Shown here in pieces: positions 1,623 to 64,000 of a stretch of 64,000 bases of DNA. A model generated the notes under the pieces. The model ran no database searches. It was given only the letters and a program-made list of their open reading frames with translations, and was not told the DNA's origin. Source of the stretch: Sipunculus nudus. Its lineage: Eukaryota; Annelida; Sipuncula; Golfingiida; Sipunculidae. Position numbers and translations under genes: made by a program. The DNA is taken from positions 30,673,339-30,737,338 of the forward strand of contig CM049316.1 of assembly GCA_026874595.1 (NCBI GenBank). The letters run 5' to 3'. How positions within the stretch are numbered: the first letter of the stretch is position 1; every line of letters starts with the position of its first letter.

Positions 1623-3360
1623 ATGCCCCCGCCACAAAGTGGCCGGGGCATATAGTTTTACCCATGTCCGTCATTCCGTCCTTCCGTCATTCCGAAATCA
1701 AACAGTTGTACGGACTTTTTTTTGCAATGCCTGCAGATATTGGCCTGATTTTTTAAGTGTGGGCAGATATAGACCAGTTACAGATGGAGTTCGCGTTTCA
1801 TCCCGGTTGACCTACTTTTGACCGTTTTACGGCTCCTAAACTTAGAAAATTTCATGAAAAATAGAAATATTCAATTGACAGATACACATGTACGGACTTT
1901 TTTTCGCAATGCCTGCAGATATTGGCCTGATTTTTGGTGTGTGAGCAGATATAGACCAGTTACAGATCAAGTTCGTGTTTCGTCCCGGTTGACCTACTTT
2001 TGACCGTTTTACGGCTCCGGAACATAGAAAATTTCATGAAAAATATGAAATTTCATGACAAATACACATGTACGGACTTTTTTTCGCAGTGCCTGCAGAT
2101 ATTGGCCTGATTTTTGGTGTGTGGACAGATATAGACCAGTTAAAGATCGAGTTCGCGTTTTATCCCGGTTGACCTACTTTTGACCGTTTTACGGCTCCTA
2201 AACTTAGAAAATTTCATGAAAAATAGAAATATTCAATTGACAGATACACATGTACGGACTTTTTTTCGCAATGCCTGCAGATATTGGCCTGATTTTTGGT
2301 GTGTGAGCAGATATAGACCAGTTACAGATCAAGTTCGCGTTTCCTCCCGGTTGACCTACTTTTTACCATTTTACGGATCCTGAACATAGAAAATTTCATG
2401 AAAAATATGAAATTTCATGACAAATACACATGTAAGGACTTTTTCTGCAATGCCTGCAGATATTGGCCTGATTTTTGGTGTGTGGACAGATATAGACCAG
2501 TTACAGATCGAGTTCGCGTTTCATCCCGGTTGACCTACTTTTGACCGTTTTACGGCTCCTAAACTTAGAAATTTTCATGAAAAATAGAAATATTCATGAC
2601 AGATACACTAACAATAGATACACTTGTACAGACTTTTCTTCACAATACCTGCAGATATTGACCTGATTTTTGGTGTGTGGGCAGATAATGACCAGTTACA
2701 GATCAAGTTTACGTTTTGTCCCAGTTGACCTATTTTTGACCGTTTGACGGTGCTCTAACATAGAAAATTTCATAAAAAGGTGCACATGTATGGACTTTTT
2801 TTCGCAGTGCCTGCAGATACGGGCCTGATTTTTGGTGTGTAGGCAGATAATGACCAGTTACAGATCGAGTTCTTGTTTTGTCTCAGTTTACCTACTTTTG
2901 ACCATTTGACTGCTCCTGAACATAGAAAGTTTCATGAAAAATATAAATTTTCATAACAAATGCATATGTACTGACTTTTTTTCCTCAATGCCTGCAGATA
3001 CCACCCTGATGTTTTTTGTGTGGGCAGATAATGACAGTTACAGATCGAGTTTGCGTTTTATCCCGGTTGACCTACTTTTGATTGTTTTACGGCTCCTAAA
3101 CATAGAAAATTTCATGAAAGACAGAAATTTTTATGGAAAATGCACATGTATGGACTTTTTTTCACAATGCCTGCATATACTGGCATGATTTTTGGTGTGT
3201 TGCTTGATAATGACCCGTTACAGATCGAGTTTGCATTTTGCCCTTGTTGACCTACTTTTGACCATACGACACCTCCTGAACTTAAAAAATTTTCCAAATT
3301 TACAAATGTTTCTAATTTGCCCAAGGCGGGGGCATTCGTGTCGTTCCAACACATCTAGTT
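1623..3360. mobile_element. Non-autonomous element with inverted ends and nine ~181-bp internal repeats
   Basis: Left end ATGCCCCCGCC (1623-1633) is exactly inverted at the right end, GGCGGGGGCAT (3325-3335). The left end also forms its own hairpin (1623-1651: 7 + 5 bp stem around AAA). Between them are nine copies of a ~181-bp unit, marked by GGACTTTTTTTCGC and CTGCAGATATTGGCCTG; markers start at 1711, 1893, 2073, 2255, 2435, 2629, 2791, 2971 and 3151. The first copies alternate 182/180 bp, suggesting a ~362-bp dimer. No transposase frame is present. Bivalve genomes are known to carry short elements with internal tandem repeats; family assignment here is unproven. Confidence 0.7.
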
Positions 3361-22092: not shown

Positions 22093-22204
22093 TTCACGGA
22101 CCCAGAAAAGATAGTCATTGGTCTGGGGAGTCAAAAGGGAGCATGGTTATCCCTACTTGAGACGAGTAACCATGACGACAGCAACGCCATTATCTATGTT
22201 TGTG
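22093..22204 (+). CDS. ZFPM: FOG/ZFPM exon A: PR-like domain segment (partial gene)
   Basis: Exon of 112 nt encoding 37 residues, from FTDPEKIVIG to AIIYVC. It is flanked by an acceptor (pyrimidine-rich ...TTTCCTTTCAG) and a donor (G|GTCAGT). It starts in phase 0 and ends in phase 1. Joined to the next exon it reads GAWLSLLET ... NAIIYVCGESSIWCEISRNI, which matches the second half of a PR (SET-like) domain: a W-x-x-x-L strand, an N-x-x-x-Y strand, then a strand with WC. An N-terminal PR domain is known in vertebrate FOG1, so the fit supports a Friend-of-GATA protein. The exon for the first half of the domain and the true start codon were not identified in the window. A TIR element ends only about 45 bp upstream of this exon. 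Identification rests on in-frame joining to the zinc-finger exons; the PR alignment itself is weak but well placed. Confidence 0.8.
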
Positions 22205-22925: not shown

Positions 22926-23699
22926 GGGAGTCATCAATCTGGTGTGAAATATCCCGTAACATAGATGATGACCAGAAACTTGTAACATCCTACGGTGGGT
23001 GTATAAAGCTAGCGACAGAGGCAGACTCTGAATCAGCCTCCGCTCAGCTGGAAACCAGCCCTGTGTATTCCCGGTCGTCAAGTCCAGTTTCTAATGAAGA
23101 AATGAACAGCACTGAAAAATACAGCCATCCTGCTCTCAACACAGATGATGACAGATACAGCCCAAAGCTAAAAGACACTGACTCTGATGTTGAATCGCAA
23201 AGTGCTACAAAGTGCCACCATAGACAAGAAAGATCAGAACTTTCCCCAACTGGAGATAGAATTAGTAGATTCCCACAATTTAAGGATAGTGGTCCAGAGT
23301 TTCATTTGAAAGAGGAGTGCACACAAGCTTTTAGCACCAGGAGGAGCAGTATTACAGAATTTCCGTCAAGAAAAAAAAGTACCCCTGAATTTGAAAACAG
23401 GAGGTTTAGTTACTCAGAAGTCTCGGTGAAGGAAGAGAGTGCATGTCACAGTCAGACGGACAGTGTTCCAGAATTCTCAGCAAGGAGGGACAGCATTAAA
23501 GACTCTTACTGCAGAACTGATAACATAGACATGATGAAAAAGAGCTCCCATTCAAATCCTTCATCATGGGGACAAGAGTCAAACCCTCCTGAAAATGAAC
23601 TTGGTGTACCAACTAGCCCCACAGGTCTGCACTATAATCGTGTAAATCCAAGGGTTGAAGAAATGGAATCAGCATCTAAAAGTCAAGGACCCATGTACC
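22926..23699 (+). CDS. ZFPM: FOG/ZFPM exon B: end of PR domain and Ser-rich regulatory linker
   Basis: Exon of 774 nt (257 full codons). The acceptor is ...GAATTTCAG and the donor TACC|GTGAGT; both boundaries are phase 1. Its first 25 or so residues (ESSIWCEISRNIDDDQKLVTSYG) complete the PR-like domain. The rest is low-complexity, Ser/Glu-rich linker between the PR domain and the first CCHC finger. The linker contains a decapeptide repeat (23270-23503) with RRxS motifs, and two LKEE/VKEE motifs that fit the SUMO consensus. No membrane segment or signal peptide is visible; the protein is expected to be nuclear. The reading frame is open from the acceptor to the donor without any ATG near its 5' end, so this is an internal exon. 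Confidence 0.88.
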
Positions 23700-29544: not shown

Positions 29545-32500
29545 AGATCCTCCTCAGTATCAGAGATATCCCACCACAACACCAAGGCCTATATGGTGAA
29601 GATTCACTTCAACATCAGAGATATCCCACCACAACACCAAGGCCTATATGGTGAAGATTAACTTCAACATCAGAGATATCCCACCACAACACCAAGAGAT
29701 ATAGTGAAGACATACAGTGAAGATTCACTTCAACATCAGTGATATCCCACCACAACACTAAGACATATAGTGATGGTTCACTTCAACATCAGAGATATTG
29801 CACCACAACACCAAGACATATAGTGAAGATTCACTTCAACATCAGAGATATTGCACCACAACACCAAGACATATAGTGAAGATTCACTTCAACATCAGAG
29901 ATATCCCACCAACACACCAAGGCATATAGTGAAGATTCACTTCAATAAGAGATCTTCCACCACAACACCAAGACATATAGTGAAGATTCACTTCAACAAG
30001 AGATCTCCCACCACAACACCAAGACATATAGTGAAGATTGACTTCAACATCAGAGATATTGCACCACAACACCAAGACATATAGTGAAGATTCACTTCAA
30101 CATCAGAGATATCCCACCACAACACCAAGACATTTAGTGGAGATTCACTTCAACATCAGTGACATCCCACCACAACACTAAGACATATAGTGATGGTTCA
30201 CTTCAACATCAGAGATATTGCACCACAACACCAAGACATATAGTGAAGATTCACTTCAACATCAGAGATATCCCACCAACACACCAAGACATATAGTGAA
30301 GATTCACTTCAACAAGAGATCTCCCACTACAACACCAAGACATATAGTAAAGATTCACTTCAACATGAGAGATATCCCACCACGACACCAAGCCATTTAG
30401 TGAAGATTCACTTCAACATCAGTGATATCCCACCACAACACTAAGACATAAAGTGATGGTTCACTTCAACATCAGAGATATTGCACCACAACACCAAGAC
30501 ATATAGTGAAGATTCACTTCAACATCAGAGATATTGCACCACAACACCAAGACAAATAGTGAAGATTCACTTCAACATCAGAGATATCCCACCAACACAC
30601 CAAGGCATATAGTGAAGATTCACTTCAATAAGAGATCTTCCACCACAACACCAAGACATATAGTGAAGATTCACTTCAACAAGAGATCTCCCACCACAAC
30701 ACCAAGACATATAGTGAAGATTCACTTCAACATCAGAGATATTGCACCACAACACCAAGACATATAGTGAAGATTCACTTCAACATCAGAGATATCCCAC
30801 CAACACACCATGGCATATAGTGAAGATTCACTTCAATAAGAGATCTTCCACCACAACACCAAGACATATAGTGAAGATTCACTTCAACAAGAGATCTCCC
30901 ACCACAACACCAAGACATATAGTGAAGATTCACTTCAACATCAGAGATATTGCACCACAACACCAAGACATATAGTGAAGATTCACTTCAACATCAGAGA
31001 TATCCCACCACAACACCAAGACATATAGTGAAGATTCACTTCAACATCAGAGATATCCCACCACAACACCAAGACATTTAGTGGAGATTCACTTCAACAT
31101 CAGTGACATCCCACCACAACACTAAGACATATAGTGATGGTTCACTTCAACATCAGAGATATTGCACCACAACACCAAGACATATAGTGAAGATTCACTT
31201 CAACATCAGAGATATCCCACCAACACACCAAGACATATAGTGAAGATTCACTTCAACAAGAGATCTCCCACCACAACACCAAGACATATAGTGAAGATTC
31301 ACTTCAACATGAGAGATATCCCACCACGACACCAAGCCATTTAGTGAAGATTCACTTCAACATCAGTGATATCCCACCACAACACTAAGACATATAGTGA
31401 TGGTTCACTTCAACATCAGAGATATTGCACCACAACACCAAGACATATAGTGAAGATTCACTTCAACATCAGAGATATTGCACCACAACACCAAGACATA
31501 TAGTGAAGATTCACTTCAACATCAGAGATATCCCACCAACACACCAAGGCATATAGTGAAGATTCACTTCAATTAGAGATCTTCCACCACAACACCAAGA
31601 CATATAGTGAAGATTCACTTCAACATCAGAGATATTGCACCACAACACCAAGACATATAGTGAAGATTCACTTCAACATCAGAGATATCCCACCACAACA
31701 CCAAGACATTTAGTGGAGATTCACTTCAACATCAGTGACATCCCACCACAACACTAAGACATATAGTGATGGTTCACTTCAACATCAGAGATATTGCACC
31801 ACAACACCAAGACATATAGTGAAGATTCACTTCAACATCAGAGATATCCCACCAACACACCAAGACATATAGTGAAGATTCACTTCAACAAGAGATCTCC
31901 CACCACAACACCAAGACATATAGTGAAGATTCACTTCAACATGAGAGATATCCCACCACGACACCAAGCCATTTAGTGAAGATTCACTTCAACATCAGTG
32001 ATATCCCACCACAACACTAAGACATATAGTGATGGTTCACTTCAACATCAGAGATATTGCACCACAACACCAAGACATATAGTGAAGTTTCACTTCAACA
32101 TCAGAGATATTGCACCACAACACCAAGACATATAGTGAAGATTCACTTCAACATCAGAGATATCCCACCAACACACCAAGGCATATAGTGAAGATTCACT
32201 TCAACAAGAGATCTCCCACCACAACACCAAGACATATAGTGAAGATTCACTTCAACATCAGAGATATTGCACCACAACACCAAGACATATAGTGAAGATT
32301 CACTTCAACATCAGAGATATCCCACCAACACACCAAGGCATATAGTGAAGATTCACTTCAATAAGAGATCTTCCACCACAACACCAAGACATATAGTGAA
32401 GATTCACTTCAACAAGAGATCTCCCACCACAACACCAAGACATATAGTGAAGATTCACTTCAACATCAGAGATATTGCACCACAACACCAAGACATATAG

Positions 32501-34600
32501 TGAAGATTCACTTCAACATCAGAGATATCCCACCACAACACCAAGACATATAGTGAAGATTCACTTCAACATCAGAGATATCCCACCACAACACCAAGAC
32601 ATTTAGTGGAGATTCACTTCAACATCAGTGACATCCCACCACAACACTAAGACATATAGTGATGGTTCACTTCAACATCAGAGATATTGCACCACAACAC
32701 CAAGACATATAGTGAAGATTCACTTCAACATCAGAGATATCCCACCAACACACCAAGACATATAGTGAAGATTCACTTCAACAAGAGATCTCCCACCACA
32801 ACACCAAGACATATAGTGAAGATTCACTTCAACATGAGAGATATCCCACCACGACACCAAGCCATTTAGTGAAGATTCACTTCAACATCAGTGATATCCC
32901 ACCACAACACTAAGACATATAGTGATGGTTCACTTCAACATCAGAGATATTGCACCACAACACCAAGACATATAGTGAAGATTCACTTCAACATCAGAGA
33001 TATTGCACCACAACACCAAGACATATAGTGAAGATTCACTTCAACATCAGAGATATCCCACCAACACACCAAGGCATATAGTGAAGATTCACTTCAATAA
33101 GAGATCTTCCACCACAACACCAAGACATATAGTGAAGATTCACTTCAACAAGAGATCTCCCACCACAACACCAAGACATATAGTGAAGATTCACTTCAAC
33201 ATCAGAGATATTGCACCACAACACCAAGACATATAGTGAAGATTCACTTCAACATCAGAGATATCCCACCAACACACCAAGGCATATAGTGAAGATTCAC
33301 TTCAATAAGAGATCTTCCACCACAACACCAAGACATATAGTGAAGATTCACTTCAACAAGAGATCTCCCACCACAACACCAAAACATATAGTGAAGATTC
33401 ACTTCAACATGAGAGATATCCCACCACAACACCAAGACATTTAGTGAAGATTCACTTCAACATCAGTGATATCCCACCACAACACTAAGACATAAAGTGA
33501 AGATTCACTTCAACAAGAGATCTCCCACCACAACACCAAGACATATAGTGAAGATTCACTTCAACAAGAGAACTCCCACCACAACACCAAGACATATAGT
33601 GAAGATTCACTTCAACATGAGAGATATCCTACCCCAACACCAAGACATTTAGTGAAGATTCACTTCAACATCAGTGATATCCCACCACAACACTAAGACA
33701 TATAGTGATGGTTCACTTCAACATTAGAGATATCGCACCACAACACCAAGACATATAGTGAAGATTCACTTCAACATCAGAGATATCCCACCACAACACC
33801 AAGACATATAGTGAAGATTCACTTCAACATCAGAGATATCCCACCACAACACCAAGACATATAATGAAGATTAACTTCAACATCAGAGATATCCCACTAC
33901 AACAACAAGGTATATAGTAAAGATTAACTTCAACATCAGAAATATCCCACCACAACACCAAACATATAGTGAAGATTCATTTCAACATCACAGAGATCCT
34001 ACTACAACGCACAAGGCATATATGGTGAAGATTCAGTTCAACATCAGAGATGTCCCACCACAACACCAAGGCATATAGTGAAGATTCACTTCAACATCAG
34101 AGATGTCCCACCACAACACCAAGGCATATAGTGAAGATTCACTTCAACATCAGAGATGTCCCACCACAACACCAAGGCATATAGTGAAGATTCACTTCAA
34201 CATCAGAGATGTCCCACCACAACACCAAGACATATAGTGAAGATTCACTTCAATAAGAGATCTCCCACCACAACACCAAGGCATATAGTGAAGATTCCCT
34301 TCAACATCAGAGATGTCCCACCACAACACCAAGACATATAGTGAAGATTCACTTCAATAAGAGATCTCCCACCACAACACCAAGGCATATAGTGAAGATT
34401 CACTTCAGTATCAGGGATATCCCACTACAACGCACAAGGCATATATGGTGAAGATTCATTTCAACATCAGAGGTATTCCACCATGACACCAAGGCATATG
34501 GTAAAAATTCATTTCAGCATGAGAGATATTCAAACACAACACCAAGGCATATAGTGAAGTTTAACTTTTACAACAGAGATATCCCAACAAAACCGCAAGG
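29545..34600. repeat. 5-kb intronic satellite, 53/51-bp units in higher-order repeats
   Basis: About 95 tandem units of 53 bp (CACCACAACACCAAGACATA, then TAGTGAAGATTCACTTCAAC and a variable end) or 51 bp (variants with AATAAGAGATCTTCC or AACAAGAGATCTCCC). Units are ordered: a 208-bp block (53+53+51+51) repeats back-to-back at 30534/30742 and 33003/33211. Larger blocks recur almost identically at 30218, 31162, 31794 and 32687, with 316-bp steps between sub-blocks. Edges (before 29850, after 33850) are more diverged. Each unit has the near-palindrome AGTGAAGATTCACT. Open frames here are by-products of the repeat. Confidence 0.95.
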
Positions 34601-38325
<3,725 letters not shown>

Positions 38326-39459
38326 TGATAGTTAACAACTGTTTCTTATCATCTTATCACTCTATCAGTCATGTTTCCTTATTTCAGTTTATATCAGTAA
38401 ATTGATGTAAAAGCATTATTTAATCAATGTATTGGTAAGTATTTACTATAAATTATCTTTGATTTTATCTGATAAGAAACAAGTTGATGTGTTGGCAGGA
38501 TAATTATATATATTTCCTTCATCATGTCCTGTGCATTTAAGCACCAACAGCACAGATATGGCCTTTGTTGCATAAAAGAGAAAAATATAATAATCTGCAT
38601 CCTGATTTGATTTTTGATAACTTATCTCTTATTCATGAATTAATTGGTGACTTATCATACATTATTACTAGTTCATGTGACCTCAGAAATTACTTCCTGA
38701 AACCATGGTGGCTAGTGCTTTCTCTTGATTAATCTGTTTCATTTAATTCTGGGATTATTTATATAAAATATAGCTATTCTGTGGGTATTAAAATACAGGT
38801 CCTGAGATTGAATGCTAAATAATGATAGAGAAGAACTTATCTGTTCCCTGGCAGCCAAGAGATAAGAAACTAGCCTGGAGATGCTAAATGATGCAGATGA
38901 GTTATCAGCCTGTAATTAAAACCACCTGCAGGAATGGGGAGTAAACAGATTGCCTCATGCAGCAAGGGTGCTGATGGGGGCTAGTGGCATTTGGTGTGAT
39001 AACACAAATAGTTCATGTAATTATATAGCAGTGATACAATACAGTACAGATAAGGTTATAACCCACTTAACCCTGGCACCCACACATACTACACATGGGC
39101 CCATAGGTGCTGACCACTGGGGTACCATATTTCTCCACCGCTTATCAGTGTTACTGATAGTTTGATTGGGGTCACTATCATATCAAAGGACGTGGTATCA
39201 GCACGTAGGTATTTATACGGCTGCTATCAGGGCAGGCTTTGGATTCTGATGATACAGTCTGTAGTCGGGGACTATCACCAAACAGCTGTGATGGTGTGAT
39301 AGTGGAGAGTCAGAGCTGGATGGTGGATGCAGAATCGTATCACAGCGTACAAGGACACGTTAGGCCCCCTTCAATTACTGGAATTGAACTAGATTAGATT
39401 ATCAGCCCAAAGAATGCATGGCGGCTGGAAATGGGTGGAAGCACGGCCGCTGAAGATAA
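38326..39459. promoter_or_regulatory. Dense GATA-site cluster in the FOG 22-kb intron (candidate enhancer)
   Basis: Twenty-four WGATAR motifs on both strands in 1134 bp. Left part: 38326, 38346, 38354, 38362, 38453, 38465, 38470, 38615, 38622, 38652. Right part: 38823, 38838, 38860, 38902, 38997, 39048, 39142, 39155, 39175, 39224, 39272, 39297, 39399, 39454. About 4-5 would be expected at 65% AT (my estimate). One pair (38465-38475) is a palindromic double site, TTATCTGATAA. The right part is also clearly less AT-rich than the surrounding intron. FOG is a GATA cofactor, so feedback control by GATA is a natural reading; activity is inferred. Confidence 0.5.
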
Positions 39460-39959
39460 CAGTTAGCCATAAAAGCTGTGCTGGCTCTGCGATAACACTG
39501 ATTAGATGCACTCCACTATATGTGGCCCTTCTTTGGCCGTATGAAGGCGGACAAACAGAAGAACCTGTGACTGGGAACCCCGTGGATGCTGTGGTTGAGA
39601 GTACTTGATCAGTCACAGAGTTCTTATTAGATCATAACAAACTGGATAATGTTTTAAACTTATTATGGATTTAACTATGGGCACCAGGAACAACTCAGCA
39701 GGTATGTTCACAATCTGTTATACTGTTAGTCAGATTGATACATTATCGATTAGACTTTATCTGGGGATGAATAGTCAGTGAAGGTTGAAAGAGGCAAATT
39801 GATATTCTGGTTAGTATATGTGCACAATTAATTAATTAATTGTGAGGCTTGTATGTGATTTATTTGTTTTGACATTGATACTTACCAGGTAGAGAATATT
39901 AATAATTGCTCATTAAAATTTATTTGACTTAATTTATAACCCTAGATTTTCTTATCAAG

Positions 39960-40019
39960 CTCTCTCTCCCTCTCTCTCTTTCTTCCTCTTTTTTTTCTCT
40001 CTTTCTCTGTCTCTCTCTG

Positions 40020-40051
<32 letters not shown>
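39960..40051. repeat. CT-rich tract followed by (TA)n
   Basis: Imperfect TCTCTC/TTCCTC run (39960-40019) then TA dinucleotides (40020-40051), the same order as at 36189-36282. Confidence 0.9.
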
Positions 40052-40052
<1 letters not shown>

Positions 40053-40504
40053 AACTAACTTATATGACTTAAGATTAGGCCATTTTAGTAATTAATTCAT
40101 TTAAGCAATAAATAAAGTCAAGACCAAATGAAATTACATCGTGGAAGTGACACATGACCATCTCAGTTAAGAAAAAAACATTTTATGGTAACATTTGTAT
40201 TCCATTTTAAATTTGTTTTGATAACAGCAAGATTACATCACTTGTAAGACCAGTGTAGATCAGATAAGAGCGGCTTTACTGATGTATCAATTGCCAGGTC
40301 TTTCACACTGAGCCAAGCTATTTGAAGTAGCCCATTAAATGAATCATGTATCAGAAGTGTATTATTTTTATGCCTGTACCTGTGGCTGTACATATGTAAG
40401 TGTTACATTTATATATTGTAATGTCAAGCTTGGTGAAATGATACATGATATGTATCAGCTGGGATACATTGATGGATGAAGTATTTTAGAAGATATTTGA
40501 CTGA

Positions 40505-40508
<4 letters not shown>

Positions 40509-40588
<80 letters not shown>
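40509..40588. repeat. (TA)n microsatellite
   Basis: About 40 TA dinucleotides. Confidence 0.97.
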
Positions 40589-40589
<1 letters not shown>

Positions 40590-41402
40590 CAGTCGGCTTT
40601 ATATTCACCAGGCTGAATTTTCACGATTTCTTCATTTTGAACGTTTTGCGAGGGTTTCATTTTTGGGATTGCACCAGAAACTTTAAAATCAAAGTACAGT
40701 GGTATTTTTATTGATTTCAAAGTTTACATGTATCCTACAATACCTCCCTAATCATAGGTTCAGTCAGTAACTTATAACTTTTATCACAGTCCATATATAG
40801 TCTCTGTGAGTATGGCATGTAATTAATGTTTGGATGTATGGGCCAGTTTTGATTCCATACACAGATAAGGTTGCTGATCAGGTTGTTTCCAGATGTCATC
40901 TTAGTTGATGGGACATCTTATTCTCAAGGGTTTCATATTTTCTATTATTTCACATTCTCAAATATTAAAACCCTCGCAAAAAAAAGGCAACCACAGAATA
41001 TAATGATAAATAACAGTCCAAAATATATTTATTTTATTTTGTATGCTGGCCCAGCACATGCAAGGTTTCCTTTTCCTAGTATTAGTGCTCATGTAACTGT
41101 ATTGTTTCAGCCTAACATAATCCATAAAATACAGAAACAGGCTATATATAAGAAGGCATGCATGAGCTAATGTACACTGGAAAGGCAAAAGGAAAATTTC
41201 TACATTTCCCGTATTCCACTCGCAATCATGATAATTAACTCTTATTTGGTCAGACACTTGTATGTCACCCAAGTGTATTGTGCTACGTGATTTGTGAATT
41301 TATAACTGTGTTTTTCTTCTTGGGAACCGTATGGTAGACTGGGTTGACAGGGTGTTAAATAACATCAAGTTTGCTTGTTCAATTGGCTATGTCTCCTCTT
41401 GT

Positions 41403-41460
41403 CCCCCCCCCCCCACAGGTGTCAGACAGTTTGTGAAAGGGGGAGGGGGGGGGGGGGGGG
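41403..41460. repeat. Poly-C and poly-G tracts in inverted arrangement
   Basis: Twelve C (41403-41414), 23 bp of unique sequence, then a G-run of about 23 with one A (41438-41460). The strand could fold into a G:C hairpin. Confidence 0.9.
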
Positions 41461-41899
41461 TTACAACATATAATACCCACTTCTGGAGGTCAAGGTCATT
41501 GGTCACATGCAAAAATAGCCTAAATTGACAGTTGTTGATTGGATGATTTCATGTAAATACTCAAAAAAAATATTTAACAGTTAAAACAAAGAAGGCTACT
41601 CATGCAGGGACACATCTGATCTGACAGATCATCGGGAAGAAACCAAACAGTTGTGAAACATTAACTGGGGCATTATTGATAAATATAAACTTTTAAGAAA
41701 ATTATCTTAAAAAAAACAGGTGGACACAAGTTGATAAAATGGAGTATAATGACCATCAAACTCTCCCAGCATATACATTCCCACCTTCCGACTTTCCAAG
41801 GAGGACTTTCCATTCTTATTTCCATGCCCTTATCAAACCCTGACCTTGTACAAATTTCAAAACCATTCATTGGAACTGCCATTTTGAGTACAGACTAAA

Positions 41900-42120
41900 A
41901 AGGAAATATATGAATGCAGAGCTTATATCTCCACCAAGGTTAATAGTCTGATTGGATCTAACCTATAACCCAGAGCTGCACCAAAATTTAATTTAGTCTT
42001 CCCTAACTCACATGCCACCCCTCCACAAAATTTGGCTGAAATTGGATTACTAGGTAGCTGTTTTTGCATTAAGTGCTGCTATCAGATAAACAAACAAACA
42101 TACTGACACAGTAATTATCC
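41900..42120. repeat. Dispersed repeat fragment ending in AAACAAACAAAC-like tail
   Basis: Shares the theme CTGCACCAAAA, AATTTGGCTGAAATTGG, GTTTTTGC and a terminal AAACAAACAAAC run with 43070-43270. Repeats of this sort are common invertebrate retroelement tails; the family is not certain. Confidence 0.4.
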
Positions 42121-45845: not shown

Positions 45846-46106
45846 CTCTGATTTACATTTGTGTCCACTGCGGCGTCAAGTTCAGCAGCCCAAGCACACT
45901 GGAAGCTCACATGATGTTTTACTGCCACAAACGGCCACAAGAGGGCACCACCAGTACCACTACACAAAGCTCCAAACAGATGAGCCCAGCCAAGCCAACC
46001 TCCCCTCAGATACATTCATCTCCGCAGAAGCCTGGCAGCGTTCCTGCACCAGTGCATCCAGAAAGTTCAAATCAAGGCCACAAAGAAGGGTCTCCTGAAC
46101 AAATGG
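45846..46106 (+). CDS. ZFPM: FOG/ZFPM exon C: first CCHC zinc finger
   Basis: Exon of 261 nt between a strong acceptor (TATATTTTCAG) and donor (ATGG|GTGAGT). It is in phase with exon B (a Pro codon is split across the 22-kb intron) and with exon D (a split Asp codon). It encodes a CCHC finger, C-x2-C-x12-H-x4-C (nt 45860-45925, YICVHCGVKF ... HMMFYC), followed by a Ser/Pro/Thr/Gln-rich stretch. CCHC fingers of the H-x4-C type are the GATA-binding fingers of FOG proteins, and in vertebrate FOG1 the first finger after the PR domain is also CCHC. Two overlapping frames look open here; only the one giving the finger agrees with splicing on both sides. An (AAT)n microsatellite begins 12 bp after the exon. 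Confidence 0.93.
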
Positions 46107-48095: not shown

Positions 48096-48547
48096 TATTT
48101 CAGTGTACTTAGGGGAAAAAAGAACTCTTTGCTTAATGGTACATGTTAATAAATACTTCTCTTTTCCAGAGCTTGGCTCATCCTATCTTGTGTCATCTAA
48201 TCTTATATACACCCATCTTATCTAATCTGATCTGGTCATATCTTATCTATCCTGTTTCAGTAGGTCTCAGAATCATTAAGAAAAAAATACATCAAAATAA
48301 TTTTACAGACAAAATAATTTAGTATCACAGGTGTTATTTTATAACTGTTGTGTGTTAAGATGAAAATGAAAGAAAAGGTAAAATGCTAATTTTTCTGTCA
48401 CATAAAAGAACATCTGTCAAACAAATAACTGGGATTAAAATTTTAAATAAATCACCAGTTCAGATGTTTACAATAATGCCATATTTCTCTATGTGGTATG
48501 GAGTTTTGAGATTCTGTTAATTGAGAAATGTTTATCATTTTCTGCAG

Positions 48548-51087
48548 ATATAATTAAAATTGAACCAAAGACACCAAGCCCACCAATGACTCCTGTCAAC
48601 CAAGATCGCAGCATCACCATGGCAACACAAAGGTCACCAAAGAAGCGTGATTATTCTCACATAGCTGAGGGGAAAGAGTCCACGGAAATGTCACCACAAA
48701 AAATCCCGAGAGTAGAAACAATTTTAAGATGTCCGAACTGTCCCTTTGCCACAGACTCACAGGCCGTGTTTGAGGCACATATGTTGGAACATTCACCCGG
48801 AATGTCAGGTTTCAATGGAAATTTCCTTTGTGAGGATGTAACTTATTGCAAAGAGTGCAATATCCAGTTCTCTTCAAAAAAGACCTTCAATGGACATAAA
48901 GAGTTTTATTGTGAAAAGCGCAGGAGAAAGCCTTCGCAATCATCAAGAAGTCCTGCTTCTCATGAAAGTCCAAAAATGCTGTCCCCACCAGCAACCCAGC
49001 CAATCAGAATCAGCCCATTGGGCCCCGGATCAAGCATTAGGCCAAATCATAACCTTCCCACCATTCCTGTTCCCATGGTGCCAGCACCAGGATTGGTTGT
49101 TACTAATGGTCTGATCCAGCAGTCACCTACTGTTGTCTTGGCAGCACCAATCATTACTCAGCAACCATTGACCAATGGCGGCCCTCTAAATGTGCCTACA
49201 GTCATAATGCAGCCAGTTATATCACTGCCTGATCCCGCCCATGCACATCATGTGACCTCAACAGGCAGAACTTCTCAGAATAGAAATAACACAGAAGAGA
49301 AACCATTAGATTTAACAGTGAAAAGAGAAAGCAGAGAAAACAAACCAGATACACAAGCTAGCTTGAAAATTAGAGAAAAGACACCAAGTCCTGTCAGGTC
49401 AAGCCCAGAGAAACGAGAGAGTGTACACGTCTGGAAGGATCGGTCACCGGTACATGCTGGACCACCTGCCCTGGTCAGATGTCCAAGTTCACCACTGCAA
49501 GGCCCACCAGTTACCAAAGTCAGCGGTTCCCATGAAAAGCCAGCTGTTCCAACAATGAGCACAGAGTGCCACAATTGTAAGATTAAATTCAGCAGCGTGG
49601 AAATTTATCTTATTCATAAAAAACATTACTGTAGGGGATCATCTATCAAATATAAAGAGGAGGAAAACCCCAGGAGGTCACCCATGGCAACCACAGTGTC
49701 TGCACTCAATGGATCGTATCCAGTGATGCTTCCAGGGATGAGTCCATCATCAGGACCACTGGTGCCCCCTAGTGCCAGCATGCTGTACCAGTCATTTTTC
49801 CGGTATTACTGTATGCACTGCAAAATTAAATTCAGTAGCACAAGCACCCTGCAGGCTCACCAAAATTTCTACTGTCCAATGCGTAAAATGAATGAACCAG
49901 AAATGTCAAATAAATTATCGTCGGACTCAAGTCAGAAGCCTGTAAGGTCCCCAGTTCAGGAAGAACGCAGCCCACCAAGTCATGTATGTCAGTACTGCCA
50001 TATTGAACTCAGCACTGCACAGCACCTGGCAGCCCATCAAAAAGCATGTGCCGAGTCCACTGCTAAAATTTCCCACCTGCCCTGCTTGTATTGTTCTTTC
50101 ATCGCTTACAATGAGACTGCACTGGCCGAACATGTTAAGACACATGTACCGACAAAATCGTATATGTGCCGACTGTGTGGTTACCGTGGCAACACAATGC
50201 GTGGTATGAGGATGCATGCAAAAGTTCATGTAGACTCCGCAGAGACATTCACAGATGATTGTATACTTGTATTGAGTGATGACGGAGTTCCCATACAGGA
50301 TCACAACGGACCCGGTATTGGGAATGGAGTCAGTGTCACCCACTACCGGGATAAAGACATTCCACACAGAGCAGCTGAGAGTATTCCAAGCTCTCATTGG
50401 TTGAAGGAAAGAAAAGACAGTGGCAGCCCTGAGAGGCATATGTGCATCATATGTGGTGCTGTGTTCTCTAGCCAGTCTATGCTTGAACAGCATGTAGTTA
50501 TACACAAGAAAGACAGGGAAGTGTTCCAGTGTAAACTCTGTCGATTTGAAAGCCATGAACAATCTCAGCTGTTAGAACATATGAAACTAGTTCATAGACA
50601 AACACCAACTCATGAAACTGACTCTAATGAAGAAATTAAAGTGTCTGTTGATGAATTATCCAATCAAGAACAGCCTTTGAGTCCGGGAGAGATTCGGAGA
50701 ACAGATTTTCAAAAAAACAGTGACAGTTTCTCAGTATCTTCAGAAACTAAAGAAAACTTGACTGTTTCCACAGTTCGGGTCAAACAAGAAGCCAAAGACA
50801 GTGACTCAGGTGATGCGAGCCAATCACCAAAGAGCAATGAAAATCTACCGCCAAATGAACGTATGTTTAAACCACTGCCTGTCGGGCCAGTGGCTCCCTT
50901 GAGTCCAGTGATGTCACATAACGTATCCGTCAGTGACAGCTCAGGTCAACTACAGTCAAATAAATGTGAAAAGGTTGGTGCCAAATACTGCAAGCAGTGT
51001 GACATCACGTTCACTTATTTATCAACCTTCATAGCACATAAAAAATACTACTGTACAGCAAATTCTGCAGAAAAAGCTGCAACTTGA
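48548..51087 (+). CDS. ZFPM: FOG/ZFPM terminal exon D: ten zinc fingers and CtBP-binding motif
   Basis: Large 3' exon (845 residues, stop TGA at 51085-51087). The acceptor is TTTTCTGCAG; the open frame continues upstream into the intron but those ~18 residues are not coding. Fingers in order (nt): C2H2 48730-48792; CCHC 48847-48912, 49567-49632 and 49810-49875; an atypical CCHC with H-x3-C 49987-50049; C2H2 50083-50145, 50167-50229 (CGYRGNTMRGMRMH, a signature FOG-type finger), 50443-50505 and 50530-50595; a final CCHC 50989-51054. PLDLT at 49303-49317 is a PxDLS-type CtBP-binding motif, matching the PIDLS motif of vertebrate FOGs. IKIE (48553-48564) and VKQE (50779-50790) fit the SUMO consensus. 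Alternating CCHC and C2H2 fingers plus the CtBP motif identify Friend of GATA: a nuclear cofactor binding GATA N-fingers and recruiting corepressors. With exons A-C the visible protein is about 1228 residues, against 1006 and 1151 in the two human paralogues. Confidence 0.95.
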
Positions 51088-61785: not shown

Positions 61786-63269
61786 TCATAAGGGTTTAAT
61801 GATAATACTGACTTGTACAGAGTCACCCTCAGGTCCACTGAGGTATGGCGAGTTCAAGCTGTTCAGTTCATCATATGGCACAATGTCATCAAGATTACAT
61901 ACTTTATCCCGTTGGAAGTTGATAGTCCTTGACACCATGTGTCGCTGGTACTCCACTCCATCCTGTACTCCCGTGACTAGTATCACAACCTGAACTTTTC
62001 CAGCTGTTGGTGTTTTTGCTGTCAATGTAAGTCTAACTGTGTTGTAAGTTGCACCAGACACATCAAGGTTTCTCCACAGTCCAATCATAATACAACGTTT
62101 AAACTGCACTCCTTTGGGATACAAATCAACATTCCACTCTAAACATCGATGCTCATCAAGTTTTGCACCACTAATTGGACTTGAAAAATAAAGGGGCCGA
62201 ACATCATACATTGGTAATAACGAATATTTATCAATCACTAATGATGTGCTCCATATGTCATTTGTGTAGTTCCGTGGTTGGAAATGCAGGCTTTCACCGC
62301 TTATGCTGGCAAGCATTTGTTTCTGTTCAACTCCTAGCTGATGATAATGAACTGCTGTGGAAATTCGTTCGGTAAAGAATTCAGGGAAAATTTCAACCAT
62401 TGGATCTTGCTGCAAAGCATGTAACTGAGCCAAGGTCATCATGGGAAACCGGATAAGAGAGAGTAAATCCAGCACGAGTTTCTGCAGGAGCTGTTCGTCA
62501 TGACGAAGTTGTATCTGTTGATGTTGTATCCAGCGCATGCTGCACTGGTAGAGAATATATTCATCTGGGATCACCAGGTGGCAGTTTTGCATAAACAATA
62601 GAAGCAACTCACGCTCCATGCATAAGAAATCATGCGTAGACGCCACCTTGTGGAAGTTCAGCAAAATAAACTGTTTGCATACTACTGCTACTTTGTAATG
62701 ACCGCAGAGCTGGGCATATTGTAACCAAGACACTGCATGGTTGTGTTCGACCAACGACACCACATGGTCCGTCATGTATCTTAAACAAACATCCCTGAGA
62801 TCGCAGACATTATATTTGTCCGCTAACATGAGCAACGGAAGCACGTTGTGATGATTCAGATGCACTAATCCTGTATAGAGATAGCCGAGAAAATAGTCAA
62901 AAACAGCAATGCATTCTGGTTCTTCTTTCAGGAAGATTTTATTTCGCTGTGACTCAGGCCAAGTTTCACTCATAAGCATCACTTTGAAGACATCGCTAGA
63001 ACAACACAAGATCAGTTTGTGTGCATAGAACAATTTATGGCCAACAGCGATTTGTATATCACTGAGCTCTGTGTCATGGAACAAGTGACTCAATTTGGCA
63101 AGGAGTTGTGACACGTTGTTGATTTTTTGGCCTGTATCATGACAGAAGGGTTTAGGACAGGTACAAGGACATCCTCCCGATGCGCTGCCACCATTGTCAA
63201 GACAGTGGTGCCCTCTACAGCTAAAGTCCTCATGGCCCGTTGCAGCGCTGGCCCCGCTTGCAAATGGAT
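61786..63269 (-). CDS. BTBD17: BTBD17-like BTB-BACK protein, terminal exon (5' end missing)
   Basis: Open frame of 493 residues ending in a TGA (61786-61788) and running up to a splice acceptor on the minus strand (TTCCTTTAG, 63270-63271); phase 1. Residues about 52-165 are a BTB/POZ domain (DTELSDIQIAVG, FYAHKLILCCSSDVFKVML, YLYTGLVHLNHHNVLPLLMLADKY). A BACK domain follows (to IRFPMMTLAQLHALQQDP), then a C-terminal half with FQPRNYTNDIW, LEWNVDLYPKG and a final SIIIKPL. The same landmarks occur in the same order in vertebrate BTBD17, a galectin-3-binding-protein-like family. The exon extends 51 residues N-terminal to the GTG-initiated frame at 63114. That stretch has six Cys and no Met, so the start codon is in an upstream exon beyond or near the window edge. 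Length is close to the family's ~480. Function is poorly known; vertebrate members have a predicted signal peptide. Confidence 0.85.
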
Positions 63270-64000
63270 CTAAAGGAACAATGATATTTATGTATCATTA
63301 AAAGAATAACTAATACAAATATGTATTTGTGACTATCATTATTAAGATGGTATCTTTTTGAAAACCCACATTTTACATTACAAATTTATTTATATGGAAT
63401 TTAAAGCTGAAAAGAACTCTAGTTAGATTAATTCTAACCAAGCACTTTAAAAAAAGGATTTGAGTATTTGGAGACATTCATGTATATATGTAGCTAAAGA
63501 ATAGCAGAGTATTAATAGAGTATTTGGGTCAACAATATAAGAGTACTCATATGATGTACCCACTTTAGCCCAAATTTCAGCCCAATTGGAGGTAAACAAC
63601 TTCTGTGAGTGTACATACTTTTCCTCACATACATGGTACCAATAATACCAGTGGTATGTATTTACCTATAATTTTGTATCAGATCACCATGCAGTGAATT
63701 AAAGGCTGCTTGGATTCAGGGGCAGATTTAGAGCGGGTATAAGAAGCACATCATCTCCCCCACCTTCCCTTATTCAACAAAGATGATCAAGGAAATTTAA
63801 AAAATACAATATTAATACATAAAAGCAGATTGTGCATCTCACATCATTTATTTTCACTACTTTCTTCTGTATGCAAGAGTCACATAAAATCTACTTGCAT
63901 TGCTGGCACACTTGTTAAAGGGGCCAAATCACCAATCTGACCTAAATAAACTAAAGGTAATCCCTTGGAGCTTTTACAAAAATAGGCCAGGAAATGTGGA
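63270..64000 (-). other. Intron 5' of the BTBD17-like exon, running off the window
   Basis: No convincing upstream exon or start codon. A fragment starting CAGGGGCAGATTTAG at about 63718 resembles the ends of the foldback elements at 5980 and 54890, followed by a C-rich stretch; the rest is AT-rich. Confidence 0.5.

Follow-up and report, generated by a model that had tools for sequence, protein, structure and literature searches.

In Drosophila, the Friend-of-GATA (FOG) gene ush is regulated directly by Serpent, and ush modules are driven by Serpent together with Lozenge (Muratoglu et al. 2006, 2007, as cited in the available extracts of PMC6366919 and PMC4862636); free Serpent upregulates ush and thereby raises the GATA:FOG complex (extracts of PMC4862636). 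In mammals, GATA-1 activates its own cofactor FOG-1 (Zfpm1), as part of a circuit of GATA-2, GATA-1, and FOG-1 (according to the extracts of a Boolean-model paper, PMC3154193). Homotypic GATA1 clusters in mouse erythroid cells comprise several bound positions at most 500 bp apart, and the genes nearest to them change expression more on average (PMC4702602, in the sections available). Among the papers listed in literature searches, none dealt in its title or abstract with FOG regulation in molluscs, which is no evidence of absence. Because GATA-driven FOG expression is documented for Drosophila ush and mammalian FOG-1, the regulatory logic considered here is already known; what is new in the present case is the animal lineage, together with the extremely high homotypic density of GATA sites.

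We analysed a stretch of 64,000 nucleotides from Sipunculus nudus (hereafter, the window), in which an earlier note had pointed out 24 GATA sites in 1.1 kb of an intron of a putative FOG gene and had proposed a feedback enhancer through which GATA factors set the level of their own partner.

Results

The assignment of the host gene to the FOG family is borne out by its predicted protein. An 878-aa frame (48451–51087) matches PF25445 CCHC_ZFPM2 in two stretches at 65.9 bits (Pfam cut-off 27), and its 59 PDB matches, most of them general C2H2 proteins, include the Drosophila U-shaped fingers 1fu9, 1jn7, and 1fv5. By these predicted FOG-type CCHC fingers, the host gene is a FOG (ZFPM/U-shaped) gene. 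Its recognised exons lie on the plus strand: 22093–22204, putatively part of a PR-like domain (AG/GT borders, reading phase); 22926–23699, putatively the last portion of the PR-like domain together with a charged/serine-rich region (AG/GT borders, phase); 45846–46106, which carries the first zinc finger recognised (AG/GT borders, in phase with the upstream exons and the next exon); and 48548–51087, the main exon, with the zinc-finger array, the C-terminal CCHC_ZFPM2 finger, and the stop codon at its end. The exon phases agree: one base is left over from the upstream pair, and the zinc-finger exons read through to the final stop in just the frame that this requires. From these borders and phases, the GATA-site cluster is placed within a plus-strand intron of ~22 kb (23700–45845, in which small unrecognised exons may lie) between the PR-like and the first zinc-finger exon, ~14.6 kb past the former and 6.4 kb ahead of the latter.

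The best Pfam match of the joined upstream-exon peptide is FOG1-like_PR (E 0.013, 15.8 bits, under the 27-bit cut-off), followed by PRDM2_PR (E 0.026); searched singly, the upstream exons gave no Pfam match, and a PDB search of the PR-like peptide gave one unrelated weak match only (E 0.87). An N-terminal NuRD-binding motif was not found in the three plus-strand frames of the window; the 5′ exon may fall outside the window or may have been missed. No second FOG copy was found among the 52 of 503 genomic candidates scored, since the next-best match, a zinc-finger stretch, is only 26% identical. For viral contigs, two stretches fitted a pattern for a FOG relative and neither was confirmed.

Other features of the window are a satellite-like array inside the same FOG intron (29707–34593, 4.9 kb; 53-bp unit, ~93 copies, 89% match), tandem arrays near the window start (150–943 and 1707–3292), one with a 27-bp unit in ~29 copies and several open frames, the second with a unit of ~180 bp, and a BTBD17-like gene (61786–63294, minus strand; BTB, BACK, and TRAF_BTBD17 domains) downstream of FOG and in opposite orientation. 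No Rfam match at the gathering threshold was obtained for 35000–42000.

A motif count over both strands of 38326–39459 gave exactly 24 WGATAR/YTATCW sites (10 plus, 14 minus; 9 TGATAA, 8 TGATAG, 7 AGATAA), the number reported in the earlier note, with the outermost sites at its bounds, 38326 and 39459; the window as a whole holds 276. This homotypic cluster, a candidate GATA-responsive intronic regulatory element, and the parts described below are annotated without strand. The left sub-block (38326–38660) carries 10 sites in 335 bp, among them three minus-strand sites spaced 8 bp apart (38346, 38354, 38362), at a GC content of 27.8% and a CpG observed/expected ratio of 0. The right sub-block (38823–39459), with 14 sites in 637 bp, is indeed less AT-rich, as had been noted: its GC content is 45.7%, compared with 27.8% in the left sub-block and ~36% window-wide. 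Its CpG observed/expected ratio (0.34) is near that of the window (0.30); two 300-bp bins in 39101–39700 have ratios of 0.51 and 0.45. The palindromic pair that had been described at 38465–38475 was found there, as a head-to-head arrangement, TTATCTGATAA, with one base common to both sites. Such pairs (YTATCWGATAR) are not rare, another lying at 42079 and two in a 200-kb genome sample (20 stretches of 10 kb drawn at random from this 1.43-Gb genome). The spacing of the cluster sites has no peak at periods of 10–10.75 bp, i.e., no helical phasing at ~10.5 bp; at 9.0 bp, one of 13 periods tried, R is 0.39, slightly above the guide value of 0.35.

The density of GATA sites in the block exceeds what composition and genomic background provide. 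Dinucleotide shuffles of the block (n = 5000) gave 4.66 ± 2.11 sites with a maximum of 14, none reaching 24, and their mean agrees with the 4–5 sites that had been estimated beforehand. Because the location of the cluster was picked for its density, a fairer null comes from shuffling the whole window and taking its densest 1134 bp (n = 200; mean 10.65, maximum 14). Real genomic sequence is a harder null for GATA density than shuffles: the densest 1134 bp hold 12 sites in the window outside the cluster, 11 in the genome sample, and 10 in 25 loci near other zinc-finger or GATA-finger exons (81 kb; L003–L027). In 160 fixed 1134-bp windows of the genome sample, the mean is 3.35 sites (variance 4.33), and a negative-binomial fit gives P(≥24) = 5.6e-9 per fixed window, a rough guide that extrapolates far past the data. 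The earlier note named a density no higher than in shuffled intronic sequence as refuting its claim; the observed 24 lies above every shuffle and every genome-sample value.

The cluster is specific to the GATA-factor consensus and not to look-alikes. Of the GATA cores in the block, 24 of 32 are full WGATAR sites; the corresponding counts are 244/585 for the remaining window, from which tandem arrays plus 200-bp margins were omitted, and 601/1822 for the genome sample (block vs. the two others combined, Fisher p 6e-6). Of all 256 W-NNNN-R motifs, the block is most enriched in GATA (24 vs. ~3.4, 7.0-fold), and the 12 one-letter core variants within W....R total 43 against 44.8 expected; single variants are somewhat raised (GATT 9 vs. 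3.4, GATG 6 vs. 2.7, TATA 11 vs. 6.9) and others lowered. GATA factors prefer a G following WGATAA, a position that had played no part in the earlier note. In the block this base comes next in 9 of 16 cases, compared with 35/187 for the remaining window and 58/432 for the genome sample (93/619 together; p 2e-4); for a G next after any WGATAR, p is 0.029, and a C preceding TGATAR (7/17, p 0.058) is suggestive only. Together, the exact motif and the following G support the sites as candidate true GATA binding sites.

The remainder of the window is also enriched. Without the block and the arrays, it holds 244 WGATAR sites against a first-order Markov expectation of 182.5, while for the genome sample 601 sites compare with 632 expected, i.e., no enrichment; the density in 3301–64000, again without arrays and block, is 1.5-fold that of the genome sample. 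GATA is there the second of 230 common W-NNNN-R motifs, behind GGGG, and the WGATAR share of GATA cores is higher there than in the genome sample (244/585 vs. 601/1822, p 1.5e-4). From this enrichment it follows that the whole window leans to GATA sites, with the block as its peak.

Counts of 25 consensus patterns of possible partner factors in 38301–39510, among them RUNX and E-box, revealed no clear enrichment; the lowest p, 0.024 for an Otx-type pattern, is uncorrected, and so no claim of a partner motif is made. The one RUNX-like site (0.8 expected), at 38321, shares a single base with the first GATA site. GTGCTGA, which resembles a Maf-type half-site, occurs at 38968, 39107, and 39198, i.e., three times in the right sub-block against ~0.1 expected, and is not significant once the number of words is corrected for.

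Discussion

The block is best read as a homotypic cis-regulatory element for GATA factors, most probably an enhancer, that sits in the large FOG intron and ties the level of FOG to that of GATA; we give this reading a probability of about 0.68. GATA factors would occupy several of the 24 sites simultaneously, and their occupancy would drive FOG transcription where GATA factors are abundant; the FOG protein would bind the same GATA factors and redirect or restrain them, which would close the loop and couple the FOG level to the GATA level. For the feedback enhancer of the earlier note, the FOG host, the density, the exact motif, and the following G stand in its favor; the enhancer role, FOG as the target, and the feedback we infer, as we do the occupancy and activity of the block and the sign of the loop.

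Motif clusters are not always bound, and GATA enhancers usually contain partner sites, so the lack of partner-motif enrichment counts against the enhancer reading, as do the window-like CpG ratio of the right sub-block and the lack of helical phasing. GATA factors that might act on the block are probably encoded: the GATA finger family has 16 genome matches, 16/16 over the Pfam cut-off, which are finger exons, the weaker ones perhaps not belonging to GATA factors. The finger exons form two local groups (L012–L022; contig C5 at ~54.04–54.16 Mb and contig C1 at ~86.84–86.92 Mb), an arrangement suggestive of GATA-factor genes duplicated in tandem. GATA1 is reported to bind head-to-head palindromic GATA motifs bivalently, its N-finger taking part (available portion of a review, PMC5220053); as the pair at 38465–38475 has one base common to both sites, behavior of the bivalent type may be considered there only as a possibility. 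A stronger version of the enhancer reading, conceivable but unlikely, makes the block an unusually strong sensor of GATA dose, in which many near-equivalent sites, among which no recognised partner motif is enriched, would read free GATA, set FOG proportionally, and hold the GATA:FOG ratio.

It is rather improbable that the cluster is an accident of sequence evolution, namely a tandem array rich in GATA that has decayed, or a transposable element that carries GATA motifs, in either case without a regulatory role. Tandem arrays are present elsewhere in the window, but Tandem Repeats Finder reports no row in the block, direct repeats in 37800–40000 are at most 21 nt long, and when 38101–39800 was compared sensitively with the remaining window and the 200-kb sample, the single match, 30 bp long, fell outside the block; by these results a tandem-repeat or microsatellite origin is ruled out. 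The right sub-block, its base composition unlike that of the flanks, would suit such an accident, yet a DNA search of the 1.43-Gb genome found the block to match itself only, and so detected no multi-copy element; this search skips very common words, so that an old high-copy element could have escaped it. At the level of words, a few short ones recur in 38301–39510, for example ACTAGCC (three times) and CAGCAC (five times), these two being at best marginal when corrected for how many words there are, and the mildly raised GATT would also fit an accident; the one-letter neighbors of the core are, however, unenriched in sum, and the G after WGATAA is enriched. Since decay should leave a halo of near misses, the lack of an overall near-miss enrichment fits maintained sites and not a decayed array.

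Less probable again is a GATA-dependent element with another output, either an internal alternative promoter, whose shorter FOG isoform would lack the PR-like part, or an enhancer of a neighboring gene, for example the BTBD17-like gene at 61786–63294. The block does lie between the PR-like and the first zinc-finger exons, Drosophila ush has alternative promoters giving different N-termini (extracts of PMC7891773), and the BTBD17-like gene follows downstream; the window-wide enrichment of GATA sites, however, fits FOG as the target, although it spans sequence beyond the recognised FOG exons and introns. Least probable is a GATA-FOG-bound silencer, with the cluster repressing FOG as GATA-FOG complexes build up (pure negative autoregulation): its sign is not readable from sequence alone, and fly Ush-bound regions are strongly enriched in GATA motifs and Ush works with NuRD (PMC7891773, in the parts available), but the relation documented in fly and mammal is activation of FOG by GATA.

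Should the proposed GATA-responsive enhancer work, there would be a candidate element, defined by its sequence, for the control of FOG by GATA in one more animal lineage, and how the GATA:FOG ratio is set in animals other than vertebrates and insects could be tested directly on a fragment of 1.1 kb. Being so extremely homotypic, the element would also offer a clean test of whether GATA sites almost alone make an enhancer. If the dose-sensor version were true and recurred in relatives, it would point to an ancient bilaterian GATA-to-FOG loop, built here almost solely from GATA sites.

As far as the extracts of the cited sources go, Drosophila ush resembles the proposed case as a FOG gene under the direct control of a GATA factor that is bound by its product; ush has a RUNX co-input (Lozenge), whereas the S. 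nudus block has a single RUNX-like site against 0.8 expected. Mammalian FOG-1 is GATA-driven, as proposed here, in a different lineage, and the extracts describe no comparable cluster of sites for it. The mouse erythroid GATA1 clusters have ~2 bound locations each, and the S. nudus block has 24 in 1.1 kb, these being motifs and not measured binding.
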